A stretch of DNA of 64,000 nt from Anaeromyxobacter oryzae (GTDB taxonomy: Bacteria > Myxococcota > Myxococcia > Myxococcales > Anaeromyxobacteraceae), in contig NZ_AP025591.1 in assembly GCF_023169945.1 (NCBI RefSeq), forward strand, positions 434,001 through 498,000, given 5' to 3'. This document shows, piece after piece, positions 1,108 to 42,258 of this stretch (positions within the stretch are counted from its first letter, which is position 1; every line of letters starts with the position of its first letter). The notes beneath the pieces are model-generated. The model was given only the letters and a program-made list of their open reading frames with translations. It ran no database searches and was not told the origin of the DNA. A program made the translations under genes and the position numbers.

Positions 1108-2097
<990 letters not shown>

Positions 2098-2101
2098 TCA
2101 C

Positions 2102-4835
<2,734 letters not shown>

Positions 4836-34164: not shown

Positions 34165-37100
34165 TCACTGCGTGACGACGCTCACCGCGGGCGACGGCGC
34201 CGAGTCCGCCGCGACGTTCGGGTAGCCCGACGCGGGGGACGCGTAGGCGCGCGTGTAGCCGACCACGTCGTTCGCGACGACGCGGTACCAGTACGTCGTC
34301 CTCTTCGCGACCGTGGCGTCCGTGAACGTGGTCACGTCCGGCGCGACGCTGCCGACGCTCGTCCACGGGCCGGTGGCGGCCGGGGCGCGCTGGACCGTGA
34401 ACCCCGTCTCGTTCGCCGAGTTGTCGGCCCAGGTCACGACCACCTTCTGCGACTTCGACGTGCCGGTGACCGTCGCGGCCGCGGCGGACGGGGCCGCCGG
34501 CGGCACGACGAAGGCCATCGCCCGCATCATGTCGTTCTCCTCGTGGCCGAGGATGTGGCAGTGCCACACGTACTCGTACCCGAAGTTCGTCGTGTCGTTC
34601 ACGACCGCCGCCGGCTGGTTCGAGGGATCGACGTTGGTGAAGGCCATCGTCGAGGTCGTGCCGACCGGCTGCGTGACGTCGAGCGGGCGCACGCTGTTCG
34701 GGAGCTGCCACGGGAGGGTCTGCTTCACCGGGTGCAGGGCGACGACGATGTCCTCGAGCGGGTTCATCCGCACCGTGTCCTTCCACGAGAGCTCGTTCGC
34801 GTCCGGCGGCTTCACGGCGCCGTCCCAGCCCACGCGGTTCAGGACCTGGACCGTGAAGAGGTGGAAGTGGAGGAAGTGCGTGTCGACGCCGTTGTGCGTG
34901 ATCTTCCAGAACTGGGTCTCGCCGTCCTTGAAGATCTCCGTGGGCGGATCCACGAAACCGTAAGGGATCGTCGTCTGCGTGAGGAAGTTCGTGAACGGCA
35001 GCTCGACCCCGAGCGTCGCGTTCATCCGGCCGTAGTCGAGGGTGAAGAGCTCCTGGATCGTCTTCGGCAGGATCGCGAACGTGGGGGTGTTCGCCGTCGC
35101 GGCGGCGCCGGTGCCGTCACCCGTGAACGTGACCGTCGGGGCGGAGGTGTACCCGGTCCCGCCGCTCGTGAGCGTCACGCCCGCGACCGCCGCGGGGGCG
35201 AGCGTCGCCGTCGCGGCCGCGCCGGTGCCGCCGCCCCTCGAGAACGCCACGGTGGGCGCCGACGAGTAGCCCGAGCCGCCGTTCGTCACGGTGAGCGCGC
35301 CGACGGAGGTCGGGGTGAGCGCGGCGGTCGCCGCCGCGCCGGCGCCGCCGCCGCCGGTGATGATGACGACCGGCGCCGAGGTGTACCCGGTGCCCTTGTT
35401 CGTGATCGTGATGGTCGAGACGCTCTTGGCCTTGAGCGTCGCGACCGCGGTCGCGCCGCTCCCGCCGCCGCCGGACAGCGTGACTGCGGGCGCCGAGGTG
35501 TACCCGGAGCCGCCGCTCGTGACCGCCACGGACGCGACGGTCGTGCCGGTGAGGGTGGCGGTCGCGGTCGCGCCGGTGCCGCCGCCGCCGGTGAGGGTGA
35601 CGAGCGGCGCGGAGGTGTAGCCGCTGCCGCCGGTCGTGAGCGCGAGGCTCGCCACCGGGCGGACGGCGAGGGTCGCCGTGGCGGTCGCGCCGGTGCCGCC
35701 GCCGCCGGAGATGGTGACGGCCGGCGCGGTGGAGTAGCCGCTCCCGCCGCTGGTGAGCGTGAGCCCGGGCACCGGGCCGCCGTTCCAGTACGAGATGGAC
35801 GTGTCCTGGATCCGGACGTAGCCGTCGGCGGACGCGCCGCCGTTCGCGGCCGGGTACGCCGTCTCGGGGACGATGATCTTGTCCTGGGTCGCGACGAAGG
35901 CCGCCGGCTGGGCCGCCTGGAGGGCGGCGAGCGAGAACGGCATCGCGTTCGTCGACGTGCCGTTCACCTGGATCTGCATGACGGTGCGGGTGTTCGGGCC
36001 CAGTCCCGGCTGCGTCGTGGGCGCGCCGCCGGTGGAGGTCTGATCGGGGTCGCCCGTGTAGTAGTCGAACCGGGTGTCGAAGGCGGGGACCGGCGCCGGC
36101 GCGTCGTTGTAGAGGATGAGCGCCGAGCCCGCGGGCACCGAGGAGAGGTCCACCACGACGTCCGCCCGCTCGGCCGGGCCGATGAGGAGGCCGTGGAAGA
36201 AGATGTTCAGGACCGTGATGCTCCGCCGGTTGTACTCGTAGCCGACCGGGGTCGAGGGGATCACGACGGGCGCCGGGAGCAGGCCGCCCTCGGTGCCGAG
36301 CTGGACGATCGCCGGGCCGGCGGTGGTCGGATCCGGCACCCCGCCGTCACGCCCGTCGGTGGGCCACGTGCTCGGCCAGCAGCCCGCGGGCAGGCCCGTG
36401 CCGTTCACCGGCGCGCCGCCGGTCGTGTCGGCGAGGGCGAGCCCCGCGCCGCTCGTGGCCGTCGGCGTGGCGCACGCCGGCAGCGCCGACGTCGAGGTCG
36501 GCGGGACGGCCGGCACCATCGACACCTCGGTGCACGTGCCGAGGTCGGCGACCGCGCCGCCCTTGCAGACGACGCCCGCGGCGGTCGCGGCGTAGTACAG
36601 GCCGAGGTTGAGCGTGCGGTCGTTGCCCGCGCTCAGGATCTGGAAGCGGTACGCGGCGGGCTCGAGCTGGACGGACGGGTACGCCGTGCCGTTCACGAGC
36701 ATCGTGTCCATGAACGCCTCGGGCGTGCCCGAGGGGTTCGGGGTGCCGGGGCAGGTGATCGACTGGCCGGGGTACGCGGTGCTCGTGCAGGAGACCGGCG
36801 GAGAGAGCAGCGTCGCGGGGTTCTGCGGCGGCCAGAACCACGGGCCGTAGTCCCAGCGTCCCACCGGGTTCGCGCCGCTCGCGTCGTACGGGTTCTGGTT
36901 CGGCACGTAGACGTGGGGGAACCAGAGGCTCCCGAGGGCGCCGTACTTCGTCGCGTCCCACGTCGGATCCGTGGCGGCGAGCGTCGTCGCATCCGGGACG
37001 AACGTCTTGTCCTGGATGACGAGGGGGACGAGGTGCGCGTAGTCGGGGGCGCCGGTGATCGTGCCGGGGACCGTCGCGGCGGCGAGCGCGCTCTCCTGCG

Positions 37101-37968
37101 CGGGATCGACGAGCAGGTAGCCCGCGGCCTCGCCGGAGTACACGTTGAGCCGCGTCAGCCCGTACGCATGGTCGTGGTAGAACATGAGCCGGCCGCTCTG
37201 CTGGTTCGTCCAGTAGTACGTCTGCTCGCCGTCGCCGGTGGCCGGCATGTCCGGGACGTCGCGGGCGCTGACGCCCTTCTTGTAGAACGTGCTCTCGCCG
37301 GCCGGCGCGGTCCACTGGTGCGGGGTGCCGTCGCTGATCCACGGCGTGTTGCCGCCGTGCAGGTGGAGCGTGGCGCGGTTCTGCGTGTACCGGGCGCGGA
37401 CGCAGGTGGAGGTCGGCGTCGCCGGCGTGCCATCGGCGCAGAGCGGACCGTCACCGGCGCCCATGTACGTCGTGTCCGTCGGGATGAAGAGGTCGCCGGC
37501 GGAGCCGGTCGGGAGGAGGTTCCGGAACCGGATCCGGACCGGCCGATCCCGCGTCGCGAGGATGAGGGGCCCGAGGTACTGGTTCGCGCCGGGAGGCGCG
37601 TTGCCGGACGCGTCGAGCTGCACGTACCCGCGGAGCCTGGTCGCGGGCAGGTCGGCGTGGAGCTGCCGCGCGTACTCGGTGAGGCCGATCTGGTAGTAGT
37701 CGCTGCCGGGGTACGAGCTCGTGTCCGGCGTGGCGACCGGGATGCACTGACCGAGCTCGTTCGCGCCGCCCGTGCCCCACGGCGAGATCCCGCAGAGCCC
37801 CGGCAGCGTGTTCACGAACTTGTGGATCGGCGGGCTGTTCGCCCAGTTCGCGGCGCCGAAGTAGTCCGGCGCGGGCATCGTGGACTGCGCGCGTGCGCTT
37901 CCGACCGCGCACGCCAGGGCGACCGCGATCAGCGTCGCTCGCCTCGCGAGACTGCGTCTCCAGTTCAT
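34165..37968 (-). CDS. Large exported multicopper oxidase with internal repeats and fibronectin type III domain
   Basis: A 1267-residue three-cupredoxin oxidase with insertions. The signal peptide is residues 1-28. Copper motifs are HLHGGNTPW (about 202), FYHDHAYG (about 261), THFLHFH (about 1031) and [17 protein letters not shown] (about 1136). Six tandem 39-residue repeats lie at about 736-959, between the second and third cupredoxin domains, and a fibronectin type III domain occupies about 1157-1250. It is a paralogue of the shorter oxidase at 24247 and resembles the Geobacter OmpB type linked to metal oxidation or reduction. ATG start at 37968 with GGAGGT ahead. Confidence 0.93.
35090..35763 (-). 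repeat. Six in-frame 117-bp repeats within the oxidase gene
   Basis: The protein repeats the 39-residue unit [19 protein letters not shown] then [13 protein letters not shown] with a short variable link. The signature GGSGY or GTGY occurs six times at constant spacing; the last unit is truncated after the alanine-rich part. The unit looks like a two-to-three stranded beta element rich in glycine. Units differ enough that recombination did not homogenise them recently. Confidence 0.9.
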
Positions 37969-38480
37969 GGTGACCTCCCGTCGCGCCGTGCCCGCCCAGC
38001 GCGGTTGCGCTGGTTCGGTGCGAGGTCGCGGTGTCGCTGCTCTTGGACGCTCGCCGGGGGCTCCCTTCCCGGCCAAGCGCTCAGGCGCTGACGGTGGTCA
38101 ACGGTGTCGCAGCCAACGAGTCGGTGGATGTGGGTACAAGCAGTGAATCCTCATCCGGCGTACGCCTGAACGGGTGCGTACGCGGCGGCAGGTCCTCACC
38201 GCCACCTGCATGCGCGCTCGTGCGCGTCGATCCGTCGAACCGACCGACATTACGAGCATGTTGCCTTCATCGAGCCGGTTGACTCTGGGTCCGCGCACGT
38301 CGTTCGGACCCCCTCGGACCGACCCGGCCGGTCTCCCCCATCCACGACGCAACCTGTCCGTTTACGCCCCATCTGATACACGGTCCCGCGTTCACTGACA
38401 GGAATACGCCGTCCGAGCTGCCACCTGCGCGAGCGCCTGCCCGTCGAGTGAGCAGCACCGGCAGTGCGAGCGCAGCGCCC
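37969..38480. other. Intergenic region before the large multicopper oxidase
   Basis: About 510 bases without a convincing gene, between the oxidase start and the porin stop. It carries lower-GC patches around 38245-38275 and 38365-38400 where a promoter could lie. A short tandem GTCCGA pair occurs near 38308-38325. No clear operator or terminator was seen. Confidence 0.55.
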
Positions 38481-39827: not shown

Positions 39828-40092
39828 CCCGATTTCACCGCCGCGTTCGATGGAACGACACGAGCGCATCCACCCTCGTCCGGCGCGAGTGTAGCGGCGA
39901 ACGGGGGCGTGTGGTTCCCGCCGTTCACGACCCGCCCCCTCACGGCCTGCGCGGGTATCCGACGGCGGCCCCGGAACAGGCAACTCCGAAACGCTCGCCC
40001 GATGAGCACGCTCTCGAGCGGGCGCGCGGTCCATGGGCGCCCGGGCTGGCGCGCGGCCGCCGCGCGGCGCGCCCGCCCAGGAGGTCCTGCCG

Positions 40093-42258
40093 ATGTCTCC
40101 AGCTCGCGTCTCCCGCGCCGCGCTCGCGGCCGCCGCGCTCGCGGCCCTGTCCGCCCCGCAGCCCGCGCACCCGGCGAACTGCAACCCCGCACTCGCCGGG
40201 GGGCCTCGACACCCGATGCCCATCCTCGGCGCCGCGCGCGCGGCGCCCCCGCAGGCGCATCTCCAGTACTTCGGCGGCCGGGTCATCTCGAACGTCCAGG
40301 TCGTGATGGTGCTCTGGGGTCCCGGGGAGTACGCGCCGTTCGTGGCCGGCGACGGGGCCGAGTCGCTCCCGTCGTTCCTCGCGGGCGTGACGGGCAGCGC
40401 CTACCTCGACGGGCTCTCGCAGTACGACACGACGCGCACCGCCTCCGGCGGCGGCCCCGGCACGGACCAGCACATCGGGCGAGGCAGGCTCGTCGGCCGC
40501 GTCGGGATCGTGCCGGCCCCGGCGAGCGCCGGCGCCAGGATCGACGACACCGACATCGTCGAGGAGCTCGCGGCGCAGCTCGACGCCGGCACCCTGCCCG
40601 CCCCGGAGGTCGACGCCGCCGGGAACGTCGACACCCTGTACATGCTCTACTTCCCCGCCGGGAAGACGATCACGCTCGGGGACCAGGTCGGCTGCCGGAC
40701 GCTGTGCGCGTACCACGGGTCGTTCCGGTGGAGCGGCCGCGACGTGTACTACGCGGTCATGCCCGACATGTCCGCCGGCTCCGGCTGCGACCTCGGCTGC
40801 GGGGACGACACGCCGTTCCGCAACGCGACGTCGGTGGCGTCGCACGAGCTCGCGGAGGCGATCACCGATCCCGCGGTCGGGCTCGCGGCCACGGTGGGGC
40901 CGCCCCTCGGCTGGTACGATCCCGTGAACGGCGAGATCGGCGACATCTGCGCCGGGCTGAACGGGACCATCGCCGGCGCGGGCGGGGTGGAGTACGCGGT
41001 GCAGCAGCTCTGGTCCAACGCGGACGGCGCCTGCGTCGTCACGCGAACGGCCGCCGTGGCAGCCCGCGAGCCGGCGAGGCCCGCCGCGCCGGTGCCGCCC
41101 CGACCGGCGGCCGGCACGTCCTCGCCGGCCCCCACCGTGACGCGGGCGCGGCTCCTCGCGATCCCTCCGGCGGAGGCGGCGGCGACGACCCTCACGGCCT
41201 CGGTGACGCCGGCGGCCGATGGCCTCGCCCGGGCCCGCCACCCGGACCTGCACGTCCTGGAGAGCGAGCCCACCTGGACGCCCGAGGGCGGCGGGTCGCG
41301 CTTCACCATCGAGGAGGAGAACGACGCCCTCGCGCTCGGGCCGCGCCCCACCGACGCCCAGTACACGCAGGGGCTCCGCGTCTCCACGCGCTGGGAGTCG
41401 CCGGCGCCGCTCTCCAGCCGCGGCCGCGAGCGGCTCGGCTTCGCGGTGGGCCAGAACATCTACACGCCGTCGGACATCCGGACCGTGGATCTCGAGGCGC
41501 TGCGCCACGACCGGCCCTACGCCGGCTGGCTCTACGCGGCGTTCCTGTGGGAGCTCGCGCTCGACCGGTCTCCGCTCTCGCTCCGGGCCGGCGAGGACGC
41601 GCGCGGCGACGGGGCGAGCGCCGTCGGCGTCGACGTCGCGTTCGGCACGACCGGCCCGAGATCCGGCGCGAGCGCGGTCCAGACCAGCTTCCACCAGCTC
41701 CTGCGAGACCTGTCCGGCGACGCGGCCAGCCCCCCTGCCCCCGCCGGCTGGTCGGTCTACCAGACGCGGAACCGCCTCACGGCCGACGTCGCGGTCCGAT
41801 ACCAGCTCGACCTCGTCCAGGCGAGCGTCGCGCTCGGGGGCCTGACGCCGTGGTCGGGCTCGCTGCTCGCGTTCCGGCTCTCGCCGCGCGCCCGGGTCGA
41901 CGCCGGCTCGATGTTCGACGCCGCGTCGCTCGGGCTCGAGCTCCGGACGGGCCTCATGGCCGCGGCGCGCCGGACGACCCGCCCCGCGGTCGGCCTCGAG
42001 CTGTACGGGTTCGCGCGCGCGGACGGCCGCTGGGTGGCGTACGACGGCTTCATCCAGGGGGCGCTCCGGGACGGCGTGACGCCGCTCGTCTCCATCGCGC
42101 ACCGGGTCGGCGAGCTCGACGTCGGGCTCGTCGCGCGGCTCGGCGGCCTCGAGCTCGGGTACGCGAACCTGCTGCGCACGAGCGAGCTCGAGCCCGCTCC
42201 CGCGGGCGCGAGGAGCGTCCACCGCGTCGGGCAGCTCCGGATGTCGTTCGTGTACTGA
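40093..42258 (+). CDS. Fusion of an EXORDIUM-like secreted domain to an LpxR-like lipid A 3-O-deacylase barrel
   Basis: A 721-residue exported protein. After a signal peptide (residues ~1-33), residues ~50-325 form an EXORDIUM-like domain: VVMVLWGPGEYAPF, SHELAEAITDP (an HExxE metal-type motif) and GWYDPVNGEIGDIC. A proline/alanine linker covers ~325-395. From ~398 to the end lies an LpxR/DUF2219 barrel: TIEEENDALALGPRPTDAQY with the N-D pair, YTQGLRV, GQNIYTPSDI and DRPYAGWLY, then VQTSFHQLL with a catalytic-type histidine. It ends in Y, fitting outer-membrane insertion. LpxR removes an acyl chain from lipid A. A GGAGG ribosome site precedes the ATG. The fusion looks unusual. Confidence 0.85.
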   Translation: MSPARVSRAALAAAALAALSAPQPAHPANCNPALAGGPRHPMPILGAARAAPPQAHLQYFGGRVISNVQVVMVLWGPGEYAPFVAGDGAESLPSFLAGVTGSAYLDGLSQYDTTRTASGGGPGTDQHIGRGRLVGRVGIVPAPASAGARIDDTDIVEELAAQLDAGTLPAPEVDAAGNVDTLYMLYFPAGKTITLGDQVGCRTLCAYHGSFRWSGRDVYYAVMPDMSAGSGCDLGCGDDTPFRNATSVASHELAEAITDPAVGLAATVGPPLGWYDPVNGEIGDICAGLNGTIAGAGGVEYAVQQLWSNADGACVVTRTAAVAAREPARPAAPVPPRPAAGTSSPAPTVTRARLLAIPPAEAAATTLTASVTPAADGLARARHPDLHVLESEPTWTPEGGGSRFTIEEENDALALGPRPTDAQYTQGLRVSTRWESPAPLSSRGRERLGFAVGQNIYTPSDIRTVDLEALRHDRPYAGWLYAAFLWELALDRSPLSLRAGEDARGDGASAVGVDVAFGTTGPRSGASAVQTSFHQLLRDLSGDAASPPAPAGWSVYQTRNRLTADVAVRYQLDLVQASVALGGLTPWSGSLLAFRLSPRARVDAGSMFDAASLGLELRTGLMAAARRTTRPAVGLELYGFARADGRWVAYDGFIQGALRDGVTPLVSIAHRVGELDVGLVARLGGLELGYANLLRTSELEPAPAGARSVHRVGQLRMSFVY

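Follow-up and report, generated by a model that had tools for sequence, protein, structure and literature searches.

The open reading frame at position 40093 of the window (the whole stretch of 64,000 nucleotides of Anaeromyxobacter oryzae DNA that was analysed) raises the question of whether an EXORDIUM-like domain and an LpxR-type outer-membrane barrel are truly joined in one protein, and if so, what the two halves are and on which side of the outer membrane each may act. The features discussed are in Table 1.

Table 1. Features of the fusion gene and its product, with positions in the window.
Feature	Position	Strand	Basis
Fusion gene, 721 codons + TGA	40093..42258	+	open frame; full-length homolog in second species
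Ribosome-binding site AGGAGGT, directly 5′ of the ATG at 40093	40079..40085	+	G004 homolog has AGGAGGT directly 5′ of a GTG start
Signal peptide, residues 1 to ~29, without lipobox	40093..40179	+	sequence and hydrophobicity; cleavage position approximate
EXORDIUM-like domain, residues ~50-316	40240..41040	+	17-sequence family alignment; Phi_1 link via L023-L025
Invariant His208 (CAYH)	40714..40716	+	17/17
HELAEAITD, residues 251-259; invariant H251, E252, E255, T258, D259	40843..40869	+	17-sequence alignment A2
GEIGD, residues 280-284; invariant E281, D284	40930..40944	+	17-sequence alignment A2
Pro/Ala-rich linker, residues ~317-400, without second signal peptide and without ATG	41041..41292	+	48% identity to homolog vs 62%/65% for the domains
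LpxR-family outer-membrane barrel, residues 401-719	41293..42249	+	Pfam PF09982, E 2.4e-39; profile match to 3FID
N410-D411, counterpart of LpxR N9-D10 (Ca2+ site)	41320..41325	+	by motif; END invariant in A3; 3FID alignment starts later
T425, counterpart of LpxR T34	41365..41367	+	by motif; YT-G invariant in A3
H534, counterpart of catalytic LpxR His122	41692..41694	+	aligned to H122 of 3FID; invariant in A3
C-terminal strand VGQLRMSFVY with aromatic end, typical outer-membrane barrel signal	42226..42255	+	sequence

One frame in two species

The initial annotation proposed a fusion encoded by a single gene, and this is borne out: one frame of 721 aa runs through both halves with no stop or frameshift between them, and a full-length copy is present in a second genome, G004. 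The motifs on which the proposal was based are all in the translated sequence, i.e., SHELAEAITDP (residues 250-260), GWYDPVNGEIGDIC (273-286), EEEND (407-411), YTQG (424-427), GQNIYTPSDI (453-462) and DRPYAG (473-478). The genome is a single contig of 6.72 Mb; the fusion frame is open there, and no other copy of the fusion protein is found in it. A G+C content of 73%, together with the MYXO-CTERM tails of relatives from the same order, points to Myxococcota.

Third-position GC is 0.88-1.0 in each block of 60 codons, linker included, which is the pattern expected of continuous coding. Hydrophobicity reaches its maximum of 2.06 at residue 9, within the signal peptide, as against a peak of 1.0 in the linker. 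The linker contains four GTG codons. The barrel half lacks a separate signal peptide and therefore relies on the N-terminal one to be exported.

G004 is a genome of the same genus. It encodes the entire fusion without stops and is 60% identical to the window protein over residues 6-721. Pairwise identity is 62% in the N-domain, 48% in the linker and 65% in the barrel, and both proteins end in SFVY. In a DNA-level alignment of the window with 19.9 kb around the G004 copy, the fusion gene alone aligns. It is flanked by genes for an OprB porin and DoxX in the window and by genes for an AI-2E transporter and an alcohol dehydrogenase in G004. Thus the fusion has been maintained as a unit in two different settings. 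The dN/dS values between the two fusion genes are 0.48-0.55 for the domains and 0.76 for the linker, but as the extreme third-position GC restrains synonymous change, these values are not taken as proof.

A merger of two adjacent genes through sequencing or assembly error would agree with the rarity of the fusion, which is missing from seven of the nine genomes of the genus. It is, however, refuted for practical purposes by the presence of the same fusion in a second species at a distance of 60% identity, and it is also at odds with the unbroken coding composition across the linker, the missing second signal peptide and the lack of an ATG in the linker. The chance that such an error produced this frame is negligible, and assembly error was rejected on the grounds that the second species carries the fusion. 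The join of the two domains is real, conserved with a second species, and rare.

Two neighbouring genes may be mentioned. The gene of the OprB-type carbohydrate porin (window 38481 to ~39800, minus strand) is divergent from the fusion gene. Further along the minus strand, the frame at 34165-38076 encodes a multicopper oxidase of 1303 aa (Cu-oxidase_2), which contains a series of similar glycine-rich repeats (GGSGYTSAP...) and has a fibronectin-like C-terminus.

The two halves of the protein

The N-terminal domain had been called EXORDIUM-like. This stands at the level of the superfamily, by way of intermediate sequences; it does not stand as a direct assignment, as the domain is not itself a match to the Pfam Phi_1 family. 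Pfam and NCBIfam searches with the N-domain gave weak or chance matches only, e.g., Phage_tail_C over 12 residues. Phi_1 (PF04674) matches neither the window protein nor, even at E 10, member 1 of the N-domain family alignment (A2), and no match to it is found in the genome. Alignment A2 comprises 17 sequences and leaves out one truncated relative, L008, in which HD replaces HE; relatives of the domain are ~28-60% identical and are found in other genera and in another phylum.

The link to EXORDIUM is through three frames. Against PF04674, with its cut-off of 25, L023 scores 25.9 bits, L024 scores 30 bits with its neighbours in frame, and L025 scores 17.7, which is below the cut-off. The A2 profile matches the same L023, L024 and L025 at 1.8e-8, 4.1e-44 and 1.7e-12, respectively. 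Because the A2 profile and Phi_1 meet in these three frames, the N-domain is placed within a wider EXORDIUM superfamily.

The presence of an HExxE-type motif, also claimed at the outset, was confirmed by the family alignment, where H-E-x-x-E-x-x-T-D and E-x-x-D are invariant. HExxE does not belong to the classical zinc motifs, and the N-domain carries no HExxH. Judged from the invariant His, Glu and Asp residues, the domain is possibly a metal-binding hydrolase with a putative site formed by these residues; that the site would consist of H208, H251, E252, E255, D259, E281 and D284 is a guess from conservation. A PDB profile search with the N-domain revealed no relative, and AlphaFold models had a pLDDT of ~35, both for the whole protein modeled without an alignment and for the N-domain modeled with three sequences only.

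The conserved cysteines and signal peptides of the family are compatible with an extracytoplasmic domain. One N-domain relative, L020 (G024:C7), has no evident signal peptide and has lost the cysteines, as if it were cytoplasmic.

The C-terminal half was described as an LpxR-like deacylase, and here the assignment is direct. The match to PF09982 exceeds chance by far: it scores 135.6 bits, where the cut-off is 26, has an E of 2.4e-39 and covers profile positions 20-321 of 323. A profile from three barrel sequences matches Salmonella LpxR (3FID) with an E of 7.6e-9, the match beginning at residue 49 of 3FID. The equivalent of His122 is therefore found by alignment and those of N9, D10 and T34 by motif; conservation was assessed in A3, an alignment of two fused barrels and one free-standing barrel. 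In simulations that build on the crystal structure of LpxR, N9, D10 and T34 hold a calcium ion, H122 of extracellular loop L3 activates water, and in the Salmonella protein D11 binds a second cation (PMC6260217). The position of D11 is occupied by Ala412 in the fusion barrel.

Given these residues, the deacylase half is probably active toward lipid A. The fusion barrel is the sole LpxR match in the window genome. LpxC was found in the same genome, and lipid A is thus presumably made.

Distribution of the fusion and of its parts

The window protein was searched for in the genus (9 genomes), in relatives (41), in the class (58) and in the phylum (68), altogether ~127 distinct genomes. The complete fusion is present in two of them, and elsewhere the halves are separate. 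Matches to the N-domain only number, for example, six each in G029 and G024 and four in G075; many family f4 genomes, as well as G090, have matches to the barrel only, at 29-35% identity. Among the genomes searched, the fusion is thus rare, not common.

The genomes G029, G024 and G075 have 4-6 EXORDIUM-like paralogs each, with varied C-terminal parts, which points to an undescribed family of secreted proteins that has expanded in this order.

Short peptide patterns were also used to scan 84,980 species genomes, a method that detects close relatives only; this added one more relative, from Acidobacteriaceae, in which the N-domain is combined with Ig-like repeats. Scans of viral sequences turned up a single relative of the N-domain, with no LpxR among the sequences scanned, and a plasmid scan gave one free-standing LpxR, in Marinobacter. 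A viral-classed contig (IMGVR_UViG_3300031730_000149; L029:210-1106) encodes a stand-alone EXORDIUM-like secreted protein of 298 aa, the gene of which adjoins that of an apparent terminase large subunit (1960-3573); it may be prophage cargo.

In the open-licence literature that was searched, no account of an EXORDIUM and LpxR combination was found, in agreement with the initial annotation, which had considered the architecture undescribed. The combination is genuine, rare and undescribed in that literature. Within the reach of these searches, this would be the first LpxR described with a large added domain.

Probable placement of the halves and comparison with known proteins

LpxR-type barrels have 12 strands, an even number, so that both ends are periplasmic. 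The N-domain is attached to the N-terminus of such a barrel and thus, by analogy, most likely lies beneath the outer membrane and not on the cell surface. The fusion had been proposed as a new combination for remodelling the cell surface; the combination is indeed undescribed, but the placing at the surface finds no support, as barrels of the LpxR type have their N-terminus in the periplasm.

The reading that we favour, somewhat above even chance, is that of one bipartite outer-membrane protein in which an LpxR barrel deacylase anchors a periplasmic EXORDIUM-like domain. We infer deacylase activity, periplasmic location, metal binding and any cooperation of the halves along the following lines. 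The signal peptide would carry the protein across the inner membrane, and the usual barrel machinery would insert the C-terminal barrel into the outer membrane. His534, with Asn410, Asp411 and Thr425 holding a calcium ion, would face the outer leaflet, where an ester-linked acyl group would be cut from lipid A. The flexible linker of ~80 residues would tie the EXORDIUM-like domain to the periplasmic N-terminus of the barrel and so anchor it beneath the outer membrane, where it may bind or hydrolyse some envelope target, possibly via the His/Glu/Asp metal site. The barrel would then stand in for the surface repeats or MYXO-CTERM tails of the relatives. By analogy with those tails and repeats, which may do the tethering in the relatives, the barrel may combine anchoring with catalysis, or serve for anchoring alone.

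The last of these, in which a former LpxR has lost deacylation and serves to keep the EXORDIUM-like domain attached to the outer membrane, is rather unlikely. In the relatives the N-domain is joined to many different C-terminal parts, sorting tails among them, which suggests a module in need of a tether, and the D11 of Salmonella is replaced by Ala in the fusion barrel. However, the catalytic His, END and YT-G are invariant in the two fused barrels and the free-standing one, and between the two species the barrel is conserved at least as well as the N-domain (65% vs 62%). A different placement, with the N-domain carried through the outer membrane and displayed outside the cell, where it would act on surface or external material, is improbable. 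It would fit the surface-protein repeats and MYXO-CTERM tails of the N-domain relatives, MYXO-CTERM proteins being described in one report as sorted to the cell surface (PMC11980579), but a 12-strand LpxR-type barrel has periplasmic ends, and a translocating part is not apparent in the fusion, which also lacks a sorting tail. Beyond the bipartite protein favoured here, the N-domain might be an undescribed EXORDIUM-superfamily hydrolase that requires a metal and acts on the envelope. The fusion would then be a two-sided enzyme for remodelling the outer membrane, in which the work of the hydrolase on the periplasmic side is linked to deacylation of lipid A in the outer leaflet; we regard this as quite improbable.

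EXORDIUM-type proteins influence plant growth. Their bacterial relatives have an invariant set of His, Glu and Asp residues, and one of them is joined to an enzyme whose reaction and location are known, which offers a handle on the function of the EXORDIUM-type domain. In 2009 a single bacterial EXO-like protein was known, from Solibacter usitatus, and the family was unlike any protein of known function (PMC2661892).

With EXORDIUM/PHI-1 (PF04674, Phi_1) the fusion protein shares a secreted domain of nearly 300 residues, and the A2 profile matches bacterial proteins that score with Phi_1. The plant EXORDIUM members consist almost of the conserved region alone, unlike the fusion protein. Closer in sequence are secreted proteins of Myxococcota and Acidobacteriota (L003, L005-L009, L011-L022), in the best cases 40-52% identical over the domain, in which the invariant residues are shared. 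Their C-termini are Ig-like, PKD, ASH, Cys-rich or Gly/Ser-rich stretches, or MYXO-CTERM tails, and no LpxR was seen among them; TIGR03382 is above cut-off in L012 and L018, and TIGR03901 is above cut-off in L018 and just below it in L014.

With Salmonella LpxR, a lipid A 3'-O-deacylase (3FID; PF09982), the fusion protein has in common a barrel that spans nearly the full profile, the catalytic His, the END and YT-G motifs and the aromatic C-terminal strand. It differs in the ~316-residue domain and linker that precede the barrel and in the change of D11 to Ala. To a free-standing LpxR of the same order, the fusion barrel is only ~30% identical.
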